DNA from: an uncultured Pelagibacteraceae bacterium
GTDB lineage: Bacteria; Pseudomonadota; Alphaproteobacteria; Pelagibacterales; Pelagibacteraceae
NCBI GenBank assembly: GCA_902582345.1
Contig: CACHRU010000009.1
Span: 1 to 32,449 of the forward strand
Length of the DNA: 32,449 nucleotides
Reading direction: 5' to 3'
The stretch's first letter is position 1. The number at the start of each line of letters is the position of its first letter. Shown here piece by piece: positions 11,945-17,145 of this stretch. A model generated the notes under the pieces. That model searched no databases. It saw only the letters and a list, made by a program, of their open reading frames with translations, and was not told the DNA's origin. The position numbers were made by a program, and so were the translations under genes.

Positions 11945-12766
11945 CTATAAAAATTTACTTCCAGCATTAATATAATTACAATTTTGACAATACTTATTTA
12001 TTGCAGGTATTTCTTTTCCTTCCATTAACTTTTTCATCTCAATAATTTTATCTTCTATGTGACTTGAGTCTGTATCATAAGGAATCAAATCACAGGTAAA
12101 TTCTAATTTATTTTTAAATTCTTCTTTTTCTTTTGTTGCATTATAAACTACAAAATAACCTCTTTTTTGAACCTCAAAACCATTTTTTTCGAATAAATAT
12201 TTATAAAAGTCTAACTGAAGCTTATATCCTTCGTGATAAACATCCTCTAAATATCCTTCCAATTTTTTTTCCTTACTCTTGCTTTGCGCTTTGTAATCAA
12301 CTACTATTAATTCTTTGGTATTAAGATTTTGCCATACGTCATCTATCCCGCCAGCTAATTTTAAGTTTAACTTTGGATGAATATATTCGACTCCCTGATT
12401 TCTAGAATTTTGCCATTTTTCAATATCCTTGTGTTTAAAAGGCACTGCATTTAATTTATATTTTTCCATTATAGGATGAGGTGTTTGTTTCGCTCTATGA
12501 TAGTCAAATTCTTTTTTACAAAGATCATCAACTGTATTGTTCAATGTAAATGGAATACTATCCAAATACTTTAAGCCTTCAACTTGATCTAAATAAAAAC
12601 ATCTTTTGCAAGTTAAAAAATCAGAGAATTTTGATCTACTCAGTCTAAATGGTTTTAATTTTTTATTATACTTAAATATTCTCCATAATTGACTTTTCTC
12701 TCTAGATTTTAAGCCATCAGTTTCCTTGAGTTTTTTAGTTTCTTTATCTCTATTTATAAAAATCAT
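11945..12766 (-). CDS. PD-(D/E)XK nuclease superfamily protein, RecB/Cas4-like
   Basis: The 273-residue product has the layout of a RecB/Cas4-type nuclease. A conserved segment LSRSKFSDFLTCKRCFYLD carries Cys53 and Cys56. The acidic motif GGIDDVW (Asp142/143) is followed by IVVDYKAQ (Asp157, Lys159), giving the D...D-x-K core, and QLDFY (Gln184...Tyr188) matches the QxxxY motif. A C-terminal pair, Cys260 and Cys263 (YCQNC), completes four cysteines that could bind an iron-sulfur cluster as in Cas4 and AddB. There is no CRISPR array or other cas gene nearby, so a Cas4 role is not supported. It follows the 61-aa gene after two bases. Substrate and pathway are unknown. Confidence 0.75.
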   Translation of the reverse strand: MIFINRDKETKKLKETDGLKSREKSQLWRIFKYNKKLKPFRLSRSKFSDFLTCKRCFYLDQVEGLKYLDSIPFTLNNTVDDLCKKEFDYHRAKQTPHPIMEKYKLNAVPFKHKDIEKWQNSRNQGVEYIHPKLNLKLAGGIDDVWQNLNTKELIVVDYKAQSKSKEKKLEGYLEDVYHEGYKLQLDFYKYLFEKNGFEVQKRGYFVVYNATKEKEEFKNKLEFTCDLIPYDTDSSHIEDKIIEMKKLMEGKEIPAINKYCQNCNYINAGSKFL

Positions 12767-13089: not shown

Positions 13090-13404
13090 ATGAGTTCTTT
13101 TGATGATAGAAAAAAATCATTTGAAAAAAAATTTGCTAACGAGCAAGAGTTGCAATTTAAGATAACAGGTAGAAGAAATAAGTATTTTGGTGAATGGGCA
13201 GCTGAAAAACTCAACAAAAAAGACCAGGAAATTGAAACCTATATTAATGAGGTTATGAGAGCTGATTTAAAAGCACCTGGTGATATGGATCTTATTGAAA
13301 AAGTTCAAAAAGATTTAGATACTTTAGACAATAAGATTTCCATAGATGAAATTAAGTCCAAACTAGATGAATGCTTTGAAAAGGCAAAAAAAGATTTTTA
13401 TTAA
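13090..13404 (+). CDS. DUF1476 protein, F1-ATPase inhibitor zeta subunit family
   Basis: The 104-residue product matches the alphaproteobacterial DUF1476 family throughout: MSSFDDRKKSFEKKFANEQE at the start, then FKITGRRNKYFGEWAAEKL, ADLKAPGDMDLIEKVQKDLD and the acidic C-terminal helix. In Paracoccus denitrificans the family member is the zeta subunit, which inhibits ATP hydrolysis by the F1 part of ATP synthase, chiefly through its N-terminal region. By homology this one should limit wasteful ATP hydrolysis when the membrane is de-energised. It is a single-gene unit transcribed toward a convergent operon, whose last stop codon begins only one base beyond its own. ATP synthase genes are not in the window. 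Confidence 0.88.
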   Translation: MSSFDDRKKSFEKKFANEQELQFKITGRRNKYFGEWAAEKLNKKDQEIETYINEVMRADLKAPGDMDLIEKVQKDLDTLDNKISIDEIKSKLDECFEKAKKDFY

Positions 13405-13405
13405 A

Positions 13406-14299
13406 TTATCTAAACTTAGTTATAAAGCTTCTAAAAAGTAATAATAAAAACAAAAGTGAAACTATTTGGAAAAAAATACTTGTTAATATATAAAAATTTT
13501 TTTTAATATTTGAAGATTGTAGTTCACTTATCTTTTCATTCAATTTTTCTAACAAATCATCCGATTCTAATATAAATAATTCACTTAATTCGTCCATAAT
13601 TTCCATGTCGTTTTCAATTTTTTTTAATAAAAGCATTTTATACTTATAAACGTCATACCATTCTCTCATGCTGAATTCTTTTATCGCTTTCTCTCTATAT
13701 TTTTTCAGTTCAGAATAGGTTTTGTCTCTCCAATGATGTTCAAAACCAAGTAACTTTGTGTAAATAATAATGTTTTTATCAAAAAATTTATCTCTATCTT
13801 TTTTAAAAGGATTGAAATCGGCTTGAAATAAGTAAGGTAACGAGGGGTATTTATCTTTTCCTATTTTGTTAAATATTTCCTCATTAATAAGGTGTAGTTG
13901 TGCATATTGAGACCTAATCTCTATTGTCATGTCTGTAACTTCTATAATCTCTTTCATCATCATTCTCCCTAAATCTTGAGCATTTACTTCAGCACTTTTT
14001 CTGTTTAAAAAATTATATGTGTCAACCTCATTTAAAATATAAGATTTTATAAGCAAGTTTCTTCTTAATAAAATTGGAGTAAAATTTAGTCCGCCACCCA
14101 TTGAAATACTATCCAAAGTCTCGCTTATTGTTTCATATTTAGACAAACTATTATTTATATTTTGGTATTCTATATTTAAATTTCTAATCTTATCTTCGGT
14201 CCTAATAACCATTTGATCAAAACCAAAAGATAAAATTGTAGAAAAAGCTACAAAGAAAATTAAAATTAAAGATTTTCTGTTTAGTGTGCCACGCCTCAT
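13406..14299 (-). CDS. two-helix membrane protein with helical extracytoplasmic domain, function unknown
   Basis: I do not recognise this 297-residue protein. It has one membrane helix near the N-terminus (about residues 10-27) and one near the C-terminus (about 269-289). Between them lie some 240 mostly charged, helix-prone residues that should face the periplasm. The layout resembles the sensing half of a chemoreceptor or sensor kinase, but no HAMP, kinase or signalling domain follows the second helix. It is the last gene of the PrsW operon; its start overlaps the previous gene by four bases (ATGA). That gene encodes a protein of the same size and layout, so the two may form a pair or complex. 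Confidence 0.6.
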   Translation of the reverse strand: MRRGTLNRKSLILIFFVAFSTILSFGFDQMVIRTEDKIRNLNIEYQNINNSLSKYETISETLDSISMGGGLNFTPILLRRNLLIKSYILNEVDTYNFLNRKSAEVNAQDLGRMMMKEIIEVTDMTIEIRSQYAQLHLINEEIFNKIGKDKYPSLPYLFQADFNPFKKDRDKFFDKNIIIYTKLLGFEHHWRDKTYSELKKYREKAIKEFSMREWYDVYKYKMLLLKKIENDMEIMDELSELFILESDDLLEKLNEKISELQSSNIKKNFYILTSIFFQIVSLLFLLLLFRSFITKFR

Positions 14300-15198
14300 A
14301 GTTTTTTTCCTCTTTTCAAAGCAATTTTTACTGATGAGATTTCAAAAAATTGAATTATGATAAAGACTAATAATTGTAAAAGAAAAGCTAGTAAAATTAT
14401 ATTTTTCTCTTTATTTGAGAGATCAATTATCTCTTCATTAATTATTTTTAAATTTTCATCTACGGTAATTAAGCTCCCGTTAAAATATCTTAAAAGATAT
14501 TCAAAAAGAGTTTCTAAATCTTCCCATAAATTAATTGTCTCATTATACACTTCCTCAAATTGACCTTGATCTTTAAGATATTTCAATCTACTTTTATTGC
14601 TGATTGAAGATTTTATCTCTTCACCTAAATCTCTGAAAGATCTTTGATAAATGATGCTTTCTAATTCTATTGGATTAAGTTTTTCTAGGGAAATAAAAGT
14701 TTTTTTAATATTTTCAGCTATATTTTTTAAATTTTTGATTTCTTCATCAGTAAAAACATCATATTCAAATAAAAAATTATATTCGGATTCGGTAAATACC
14801 GAAACAAATTCTGACATCATTTTTTCATCACGAACCATGTCGTATAATGCGTAAGTCTGTAAATCATTTGGAGATGAAACCGCTTTTCCAAATTGATTAA
14901 GCCTTAAAAACTCCAGATTTTGTTCAAAAGACCCCTCTAAATTTTTATATTGTCTAATTTTATTTTTATAATCTATTACCATTTTAGTATATTTTTCAGA
15001 TAAGGATTTTGCTCTTGAATTTTCGAGATGTTCGAATTCTAAATTGCTTACTTTGTTTTCAATATAAATTGATATAGATGCAGCTGTTAGTGCAAAAATG
15101 GACAAAAATATTCCGATATTTATTATGAAGATTGCTCTTTTTGAATTCTTCGCAATCGCAAAGTAATTCATTAATATAGATAACTTTAAAAGTTTCAT
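14296..15198 (-). CDS. two-helix membrane protein with helical extracytoplasmic domain, function unknown
   Basis: I do not recognise this 300-residue protein. Membrane helices lie at about residues 21-46 and 267-288, with a long, acidic, coiled-coil-like region between them. After the second helix only about 12 basic residues remain, so there is no cytoplasmic output domain. Size and topology mirror the downstream 297-residue protein, although I see no clear sequence match between them by eye. A second in-frame ATG nine codons in (MNYFAIAKNSK) is an alternative start. It begins ten bases after the PrsW stop codon and is coupled to the next gene by an ATGA overlap, so it is plausibly a partner or substrate of the protease. 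Confidence 0.6.
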   Translation of the reverse strand: MKLLKLSILMNYFAIAKNSKRAIFIINIGIFLSIFALTAASISIYIENKVSNLEFEHLENSRAKSLSEKYTKMVIDYKNKIRQYKNLEGSFEQNLEFLRLNQFGKAVSSPNDLQTYALYDMVRDEKMMSEFVSVFTESEYNFLFEYDVFTDEEIKNLKNIAENIKKTFISLEKLNPIELESIIYQRSFRDLGEEIKSSISNKSRLKYLKDQGQFEEVYNETINLWEDLETLFEYLLRYFNGSLITVDENLKIINEEIIDLSNKEKNIILLAFLLQLLVFIIIQFFEISSVKIALKRGKKL

Positions 15199-15208
15199 AA
15201 TTCAAATC

Positions 15209-16021
15209 TTATAAACTTATTAAAAAATTTAATATTAAATAAAAACTTAATACAATTATTGAGGCTAATGAAAAATCTTTTACAGTAATATTGTAATATC
15301 TTACACTAAACATGGTTTTATTATGTTGATTTCGCTTAAAATTTCTAAAAATATAAATTGATCTAAAAAAAAATATAAATGCAGTTATGTATGCTATTTG
15401 TTCACTAATGATATCACTGGAAATACTATAATTCCATAATCCATGTATGCCTACCGGAACCGCTAAAGCTAATATAAGATTGTAAAAATTATATTTTTTT
15501 TCAAATAAAGTTTGAGATATTAAAAAACCCATCATAATTCCACACAATGCATGTACTGGAACGGCAGAAAACGCTCTATAGATCGCTACATAAATTGAGG
15601 GGTCATAAACTATCTTTCCAGACTCATTAATATAGAACAGAACATAATCTATATTTTCCCAAGCAGCGAAACCTAGAGATGCAGCCACTCCATAAACTAA
15701 ACCATCCATGGGTTCATCGAACGCTGTTTTTCGAGTGCAATAGAAAACTATTATCATCATTTTAAATATTTCCTCTAGAAATGCAGCTCTAATGAAGCTA
15801 TCAAAAAAAAGGTAAGTTTCACCAGTTAAATTTTTTTCTGAAAATCTATCGAAATCTACTATAAATAGATCTAGAGCGATGGTTATAGCTGCACCAAAAA
15901 TAAAAGTTTTTATTACTATTTCTTTAGGCTCAGGAAATGCATCTTGTTTAAATACATATAATAAAATTATTATCGCGGGTAGTATTGCAGCTAGAATATA
16001 AAAAAAATTAGAGATTAACAT
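15209..16021 (-). CDS. PrsW-family intramembrane glutamic protease
   Basis: The 270-residue product is a polytopic membrane protein with about seven or eight hydrophobic segments. It carries the PrsW family motifs in order: FPEPKE near residue 29, the paired Glu83-Glu84 with Lys87 in FLEEIFKM, DEPMDGLVYGVAASLGFAAWEN (Glu122, Asn123), PVHALCGIMMG (His157) and HGLWNY (His193). In Bacillus, PrsW performs site-1 cleavage of the anti-sigma factor RsiW. The family belongs with CAAX-type glutamic proteases. No sigma/anti-sigma pair lies here, so the substrate is unknown; the two bitopic-like proteins downstream are candidates. Its ATG shares one base with the stop of the DUF2167 gene. Confidence 0.85.
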   Translation of the reverse strand: MLISNFFYILAAILPAIIILLYVFKQDAFPEPKEIVIKTFIFGAAITIALDLFIVDFDRFSEKNLTGETYLFFDSFIRAAFLEEIFKMMIIVFYCTRKTAFDEPMDGLVYGVAASLGFAAWENIDYVLFYINESGKIVYDPSIYVAIYRAFSAVPVHALCGIMMGFLISQTLFEKKYNFYNLILALAVPVGIHGLWNYSISSDIISEQIAYITAFIFFFRSIYIFRNFKRNQHNKTMFSVRYYNITVKDFSLASIIVLSFYLILNFLISL

Positions 16022-16968
16022 TAATCTTTGTCTAATTTTCTTCTTTTATTTTTTTTCCTTGAGCTAGAACTCTTTTTGCTTTTTTCCCCCTGCATAAAAC
16101 CGAAAGCAGCTATAGGTGCTAGCAATATCCACCAAAATTTTGCAAGTAGTGGCAAAAGTTTCGCAAAAAAACCAGTTTTAGCAATAACTTTTGCTCCAAG
16201 TGATCCTGCGACTAAACTACCTACACCTACGGCAGCAATTTTATCTCCTGACTTATAATCTGTATGTTTGTAACCATCAGAAAAAATTACACCATTTACA
16301 AAATCTTTAGAATATTCAGATTCCTCTTTAAAATTACTTTGATTATTTAGTGTTACAACGTAAGTGGTCTCGATGTAACCTTTTTTTCCAAGGATAAAAT
16401 TTTTAGACTCTAAAGTTTTATTACCATCATTCCAGAATACCTTGTATGAATAACTTACTGATCTATTTTTTTGGTTCAATTCAGGATCGAATACCCACTC
16501 AAAGTCCGTAGCATAATCGAGATTATTTTCTTTATAATATGATTCATTGGATTTAGAAATTTGCTTAAGATCATTTAATAAGTCTTTTGGTTTAACATTT
16601 TTCCAATCATCTAATTTTACGTAACCATTTTCGACATAATAAGTATAAATTGAATAATTTTCCCCTTGTAGAAAAAAAATAATATCGGGGCTTGCAGCTT
16701 TACCAAATTTCCACCAATAAAATTGATTAATTTCTTTATAGCCTTTTAAGTAATACTCACTATCATAAACTTGAATTTTTGCGTTTGCCTCTGGAATTTC
16801 AGTGCTGTGATTTTTGCCGTTAGTATAATTATACCAAGTAAGTGTTAGTAGTTTTTCTCTTAATTCATCTTTATTTGTAATTTTTTTTTTTTATAAAGCA
16901 TGAAGGGTTGTTAAAAAAAGAAAAAGATAAATAAGTAAAAATGAAAAAATTTTATATAATTTTTTCAT
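16021..16968 (-). pseudogene. DUF2167 membrane protein, interrupted by an in-frame stop codon
   Basis: From the ATG at 16966-16968 the frame reads a signal peptide (MKKLYKIFSFLLIYLFLFLT, ending LHAL). It then meets TAA at 16891-16893 and resumes in the same frame for 289 codons to the TAA at 16021-16023. The resumed part matches the DUF2167 family from end to end: the block YYVENGYVKLDDW, the segment FILGKKGYIETTYVV, SGDKIAAVGVGSLVAGSLGAK, then a C-terminal membrane helix with WWILLAPIAAFGF and a basic tail. The stop directly abuts a run of twelve A on the coding strand. No ATG or GTG follows in frame; a TTG at 16479 could only give a 152-residue C-terminal piece. It is either a recent nonsense mutation or a base-call error. 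The family's role is unknown. Confidence 0.65.
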
Positions 16969-16974
16969 TAAACT

Positions 16975-17145
16975 TTATTTATTTTTATTACCAATATTTA
17001 ACAAAAAACCACCTAAAAGCCCTATTGCAATCGGAGAAAATCTTGAAATCTCAGGAGGCAAAAAAGGTGTAAGGTTTATGCCCATATAAGATAGACCAAA
17101 GTCAGCGATTGCAAACACTATTAAAATGATACCTATAATTTGCAT
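16975..17145 (-). CDS. 56-residue membrane protein, two predicted helices
   Basis: This short frame encodes MQIIGIILIVFAIADFGLSY and continues to a second hydrophobic stretch around IAIGLLGGFLLNIG, ending GNKNK. It has two membrane helices joined by a proline-containing loop (NLTPFLPPEIS). I do not recognise the family. It is believable because its composition is that of a real small membrane protein, it ends six bases before the DUF2167 ATG, and a good promoter lies right in front of it (17151-17179). There is no ribosome-binding site; the mRNA appears to start at or next to its ATG. It would be the first gene of the PrsW operon. Confidence 0.55.
   Translation of the reverse strand: MQIIGIILIVFAIADFGLSYMGINLTPFLPPEISRFSPIAIGLLGGFLLNIGNKNK

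Follow-up and report, generated by a model that had tools for sequence, protein, structure and literature searches.

We analyzed a 32,449-nt stretch of DNA from an uncultured Pelagibacteraceae bacterium (contig CACHRU010000009.1), referred to as the window, which carries on its minus strand, in the slot between gltX and lpxB, a run of five genes for membrane-associated proteins: a small two-helix protein, an interrupted gene of the DUF2167 family, an intramembrane protease of the PrsW family, and two proteins that we named B and A. Comparison of the run with related loci identified PrsW, B and A as a recurrent gene unit at the level of gene content and order, with A and B as constant genomic partners. 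At a number of related loci, PrsW is followed in this position by either B-A or a gene of the pentameric ligand-gated ion channel (pLGIC) type.

Reading frames and domains of the gene run

The initial annotation of this stretch had described five minus-strand genes with gaps of at most 10 bp. Inspection of the reading frames and their spacing confirmed this arrangement, B and A overlapping by 4 bp, PrsW and B being separated by 10 bp, and all gaps and overlaps amounting to ≤10 bp if the DUF2167 gene is counted from its ATG. The frames of the small protein, PrsW, B and A are intact, and the equal size of the last two was also borne out, whereas the DUF2167 frame is interrupted by an in-frame TAA. 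The promoter candidate placed before the run did not stand: the best promoter-like site upstream (17179-17151) is one among 34 sigma-70-like sites, compared with 29.1 ± 5.3 in shuffles of the region, a difference that is not significant, and the site is therefore no evidence for a promoter.

Table 1. Positions of the five genes and of two neighboring features in the window.
Feature	Position	Strand	Description
Protein A	13406-14299	−	297 aa; TM1 ~10-28, ~240-residue, probably helical extracytoplasmic middle, TM2 ~271-289, short basic tail
Protein B	14296-15198	−	300 aa; layout like A, TM1 ~22-40, TM2 ~267-285; occurs and diverges together with A; perhaps a distant paralogue
PrsW-family intramembrane protease	15209-16021	−	270 aa; EExxK 83-87, FxxxEN from 118, His157, His193
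DUF2167 gene, interrupted	16021-16968	−	signal-peptide-like start at ATG 16968; TAA 16893-16891; domain frame 16021-16890
Small two-helix membrane protein	16975-17145	−	56 aa; family occurring near DUF2167, PrsW or pLGIC genes in relatives
ATPase inhibitor subunit zeta (PF07345)	13090-13404	+	convergent neighbor of A; flank, outside the module; adjoins A in G222 and G268 too
PD-(D/E)XK nuclease (PF12705)	11945-12766		weak Cas4 similarity; island edge

The call of a PrsW-type protease was upheld, since the protein matches PF13367 (E 1.7e-36, 126.1 bits against a Pfam cut-off of 23.5) and carries the EExxK (E83, E84, K87), FxxxE (F118, E122) and two His (H157, H193) motifs, which we take to be the catalytic motifs; EExxK is kept in all 34 PrsW sequences compared. 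Against the NCBIfam equivalog PrsW (NF033739) it reached 119 bits, compared with a cut-off of 225. By these scores the window protein is a member of the family, not a proven equivalent of Bacillus PrsW.

PrsW has been characterized mainly in a Bacillus stress pathway that releases an extracytoplasmic function (ECF) sigma factor, and few of its partners are known. In Bacillus subtilis it is the site-1 protease of the anti-sigma factor RsiW, a cleavage treated in a passage of PMC3482391. The window protein resembles this enzyme in its PF13367 match well above the cut-off and in its EExxK and His motifs, and differs from it in falling below the NCBIfam cut-off, in that no ECF-type sigma region 4 was found, and in its partners, which are A and B, DUF2167 or pLGIC. 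Sigma70_r4_2, the sole sigma domain searched, was not matched at E 0.1 anywhere in the genome, which is 84.9% complete; the same search was positive for all 14 controls, 13 of them over the cut-off. No anti-sigma domain was present among the eight window proteins scanned with Pfam and NCBIfam. One site-2-type protease of the M50 family (E 4.7e-67) is encoded on another contig. The earlier statements that no sigma or anti-sigma factor lies nearby, and that this is not the known sigma-W/RsiW pathway of PrsW, thus hold as far as tested, though the M50 protease is present.

In A and B, the stretch before the first hydrophobic segment is net positive in 19 of 20 sequences and the tail after the second segment in 18 of 20. 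With positive ends on both sides, the long middle should therefore lie outside the cytoplasm. Among nine genomes, the mean pairwise identities of the two helix regions were 0.50 and 0.56 for A and 0.53 and 0.52 for B, compared with 0.23 and 0.20 for the respective middle parts; the membrane helices are thus conserved and the part between them is divergent. Both proteins have conserved or invariant polar residues within or next to the helices, D28, Q29, E35, R39, N268 and Q278 in A and N27, E47, E54, Q275, Q283 and E286 in B. The tails after the second segment are short in the window proteins (8 residues in A and 15 in B) and gave no domain matches, so that no cytoplasmic output domain of the histidine kinase or chemoreceptor type was found. 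The original description of A and B as sensor-like proteins without output domains was therefore right about the helix-middle-helix layout and the missing output domain, while the word sensor reflects topology only, no convincing domain having been recognized.

Searches of Pfam, NCBIfam, PADLOC, PHROGs and PDB sequences returned only weak, scattered matches for A and B and no convincing known family. The best Pfam E values among their members, 0.0029 for B and 0.0052 for A, were each confined to a single member. No Neur_chan ligand-binding or membrane domain was detected in 11 A and 9 B proteins with Pfam, nor in PDB profile searches.

The DUF2167 frame resembles its family in matching PF09935 (E 4.2e-33, 115 bits against a Pfam cut-off of 25), as intact relatives do above the cut-off, and differs in that the window copy is broken. 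From the ATG, a signal-peptide-like stretch of 25 codons is followed by the TAA, directly before a run of adenines, and the domain resumes in the same frame, with the first ATG, GTG or TTG only at 16479; the stop thus parts the domain from its start codon. In the near relative L001 (L-numbers denote loci and G-numbers genomes), a Glu codon stands at the position of the TAA. The stop marks either a gene that no longer works in this cell or a base error from assembly or amplification, and it leaves PrsW, B and A untouched. DUF2167 is present in 9 of 247 Pelagibacterales genomes, and a search of the open-licence literature turned up only a Salmonella genome announcement for it.

Recurrence of PrsW with A and B in Pelagibacterales

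The 247 Pelagibacterales genomes of our sample were drawn from a larger group. BLAST found A and B in the same 10 of them, and the profile of A (A1) matched 13, of which 12 were counted; G112, with a weak A match (E 6.8e-5) and no B seen nearby, was left out of the A/B set. PrsW was over the cut-off in 30 genomes, four genomes with matches only under the cut-off not being counted; of the 12 A/B genomes, 10 have PrsW (Fisher p 9e-9, relatedness not corrected). In the two A/B genomes without a visible PrsW, the contig breaks off on the side expected to hold PrsW, within B in G154 and at the start of A in G262.

PrsW, B and A follow one another on one strand with operon spacing in seven of these ten loci: the window, G222, G229, G268, G151, G160 and G251 (in the last with a second, divergent pair). 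In G177 and G208, B-A lies on the other strand within ~1.2 kb of PrsW, so that B-A is found within 1.2 kb of PrsW in nine of the ten. The full five-gene order was found in four (the window with its broken DUF2167, G222, G229 and G268), and all five genes lie near one another in six (those four, G208 and G151). The flanks differ among the loci, with the gltX-lpxB slot in the window, G222, G229 and G268, a second set common to G177, G151 and the A/B-less genome G194, and a third in G208. The initial question whether the gene order recurs in other SAR11 genomes is therefore answered more widely for the shorter PrsW-B-A unit than for the full five-gene order. Likewise, the coupling of PrsW with A and B, at first drawn from one locus, was strengthened by its recurrence in at least three flank sets and with divergent sequences, although the five-gene order is not a conserved unit.

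The distance matrices of A and B agree closely (Mantel r 0.957, nine genomes). Sequence similarity is unevenly distributed in G151, G251 and G160, whose PrsW proteins are 74-82% alike and whose A and B are only 19-27% alike. G262 and the second G251 pair are absent from the alignments A1 and A2 (the latter the profile of B), and G154 and G056, with B cut by a contig end, are in A1 and not in A2. A TAA flagged in the G229 match of A is A's own stop, its frame being 297 aa.

Outside the order, no relative was convincing: in the class sample (219 other genomes) profile A1 returned a single weak match, which carries seven stops, and in the phylum sample (218 others) profile A2 returned none. A was searched in the former and B in the latter; the two samples share genomes, and the class sample contains at least two of the window's own family.

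Two features of single loci were also observed. In G251 (L039:5260-8513), two A/B pairs lie end to end, the second of which (255 and 258 aa) is divergent and stands directly behind PrsW. One base separates the convergent ATPase inhibitor zeta gene from A in the window, and one or two bases do so in G222 and G268.

Channel-type genes and the slot behind PrsW

The pLGIC family was defined as a BLAST single-linkage group of 20 proteins, four members of which were run against Pfam; PF02932 finds others. The L001 protein matches PF02932 at 5e-8 and ELIC-type structures at ~1e-14. The PF02932 matches of other members are weaker, with two falling below the cut-off, and the calls for G011, G105, G109 and G253 come from clustering and a local model only. 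In 7 of the 34 PrsW loci, a gene of this family follows PrsW within the same-strand run, and in two it precedes PrsW. What A and B have in common with prokaryotic pLGICs of the ELIC/GLIC/DeCLIC type is this place, the same slot after PrsW in related cassettes, whereas A and B, each with two helices, show no detectable relation to the channels.

A PF02932 match was found in 15 of the 247 genomes (over the cut-off in 7), 10 of which also have PrsW (Fisher p 3e-7, relatedness not corrected). In all 10, the two lie on the same contig within ~8 kb; the other five have no PrsW over the cut-off.

The PrsW tree comprises 34 rows, nine of which carry the A/B-only label; G208 bears both labels and is outside these nine, and G103, with PrsW over the cut-off, is absent from the tree. 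G035 and G205 were labelled as having neither, though each has a PF02932 match ~8 kb from its PrsW, beyond the fetched stretch. Neither the A/B nor the pLGIC labels cluster on this tree, and the A/B-only label needs 8 changes, compared with a shuffled mean of 8.1. The starred groups that mix A/B and pLGIC loci are window/L001/L002, G177/G156b, G160/G142/G275 and, with long branches, G056/G048.

A comparison of six loci placed the parts of the window run next to different relatives. L001 is the closest for the small protein, DUF2167 and PrsW (96, 89 and 87%, with L002 tying for the small protein). Its fetched stretch has no A or B; a short gene on the opposite strand follows PrsW, and a pLGIC gene comes next. 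For B and A, the closest is G222 (83 and 82%), the PrsW of which is only 58% like that of the window. The small two-helix family itself, with an NLTxF core, forms an 18-member group in the fetched loci and recurs near DUF2167, PrsW or pLGIC genes.

The slot between gltX and lpxB appears to be flexible in this lineage. Eight A/B-less genomes were searched for lpxB and seven were fetched. gltX lay inside the stretch in four, where the gltX-lpxB interval measures 0.9-3.1 kb, compared with 5.5 kb in the window; tblastn detected none of the cassette genes in the seven stretches, gltX being outside the stretch in three. SAR11 genomic islands are treated in part of PMC7318151. Nucleases related to the PD-(D/E)XK nuclease of the window were observed in the gltX-lpxB interval of four cassette-less genomes, in the opposite orientation relative to gltX.

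In the open-licence literature searched, where absence is no proof of novelty, no paper joining "ligand-gated ion channel" and "SAR11" was found, and PrsW together with a ligand-gated ion channel returned only work on the spinal glycine receptor, which was judged unrelated.

A proposed exchangeable receptor cassette and its alternatives

We tentatively favor the reading that the locus is one allele of an exchangeable cassette consisting of PrsW plus a membrane receptor. A functional coupling of PrsW with A and B is very likely and their assembly into an A+B heteromer probable, while a receptor-like role of A and B is conceivable and it is rather doubtful that either is a PrsW substrate. We consider it unlikely that A and B are subunits of an undescribed class of envelope receptors or channels interchangeable with pLGICs, with PrsW dedicated to processing or gating such receptors, in which case SAR11 cells would swap environmental receptors behind a common protease.

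From these comparisons we infer binding between A and B, sensing by them and cutting by PrsW. A and B would assemble into a heteromeric complex through the membrane helices that carry or adjoin the conserved polar residues, and would present their variable helical domains in the periplasm for sensing or contact. PrsW, produced together with them, may process, activate or remove the complex through a cut within or beside a membrane helix. Lacking an output domain in the cytoplasm, A and B would have to signal by the cut as such, by altered conductance of the membrane, or through a further partner. With no Sigma70_r4_2 match and with EExxK and the His residues kept, PrsW may be read as the shared protease that processes or regulates an exchangeable membrane receptor or channel, which in this locus would be the A+B pair.

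A number of results weigh against the cassette reading. Flexible islands also keep unrelated genes together, and linkage alone is therefore no proof of joint function. PrsW occurs without A and B in 20 of its 30 genomes, 9 of the 34 PrsW loci have neither A/B nor pLGIC in the fetched stretch, and in G056 PrsW and A are separated by 5.9 kb with unrelated genes between. The FxxxEN motif search missed 4 of the 34 PrsW rows and landed elsewhere in 3. The distances of A and B correlate only moderately with those of PrsW (Mantel r 0.52 and 0.48, p 0.008 and 0.017), so that a finely co-evolved enzyme-substrate pair is not indicated; such a correlation would be compatible with recognition of the conserved helices. 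Single-sequence AlphaFold models of A and B are mostly helical, but their confidence is low (predicted local distance difference test 47.5 and 40.8) and they offer no proof. The evidence for paralogy of A and B is mixed and at most suggestive: their whole-profile comparison gave E 0.001 but a probability of 21%, and for the ends alone, the N-terminal score of 19.0 exceeded the best of 100 column shuffles (14.6), in support, whereas the C-terminal score of 12.9 stayed below it (19.2), which does not support paralogy.

The same place after PrsW, and the alternation of B-A and pLGIC genes on the PrsW tree, would also suit a membrane channel or transport complex of A and B that stands in for the pLGIC, with PrsW serving assembly or quality control and not signalling. 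The conserved polar residues in or beside the helices point the same way, as does, weakly, the finding of a PF02932 match in none of the 12 A/B genomes, where fewer than one would be expected by chance (15 of 247 genomes having one). We nevertheless regard this explanation as not very probable: Pfam and PDB profile searches related A and B to no channel family, the A/B genome G208 has a pLGIC-like gene ~3 kb away by the local model, and two helices per subunit with a fast-diverging middle would suit many receptor or anchor proteins equally well. Simple hitch-hiking, in which PrsW, A/B and pLGIC genes share flexible islands without working together, would fit the variable gltX-lpxB slot and the partly uncoupled histories of PrsW and A/B; the operon spacing of PrsW-B-A in seven of ten loci, from different PrsW clades and at least three flank sets, makes it rather improbable.

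A constant protease, an exchanged and fast-diverging cargo and a flexible island are also what an inter-strain conflict system would offer, with PrsW as the constant processing protease of a variable, swappable cargo. In a passage of PMC3482391, PrsW is proposed as an export and processing device for polymorphic toxins, and the likeness lies in a constant PrsW with variable, recombining cargo. There, PrsW is fused to the toxin, whereas the window PrsW is a free-standing protein of 270 aa with PF13367 as its only domain, the cargo consists of separate two-span membrane proteins, and no toxin or immunity domain was recognized in the proteins scanned, all of which leaves a conflict system improbable. 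A patchy distribution, exchange among genomes and an exposed part that diverges rapidly would likewise fit a module for anti-phage defence at the membrane, with periplasmic parts that vary under pressure from phages. This we hold to be improbable too, as none of the five proteins (A, B, PrsW, DUF2167 and the small protein) matched PADLOC up to E 1, and no relatives of A or B were found in viral contigs, nor of A, the only one searched there, in phage or plasmid records.

At the genetic level, PrsW is thus linked repeatedly to two unrelated kinds of membrane protein in very abundant ocean bacteria. This link bears both on the partners of PrsW and on what bacterial ligand-gated channels do for the cells that carry them.

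Finally, operon-like runs of PrsW, pLGIC-type channel genes and a flavin amine oxidase were observed in L083 (G142), L094 (G256) and L095 (G275), PF01593 having been tested on the L094 protein, and the G142 and G275 runs also hold a DUF805-family protein. A passage of PMC3119659 describes ELIC as activated by primary amines. As a guess, these runs might represent units that both sense and degrade amines.

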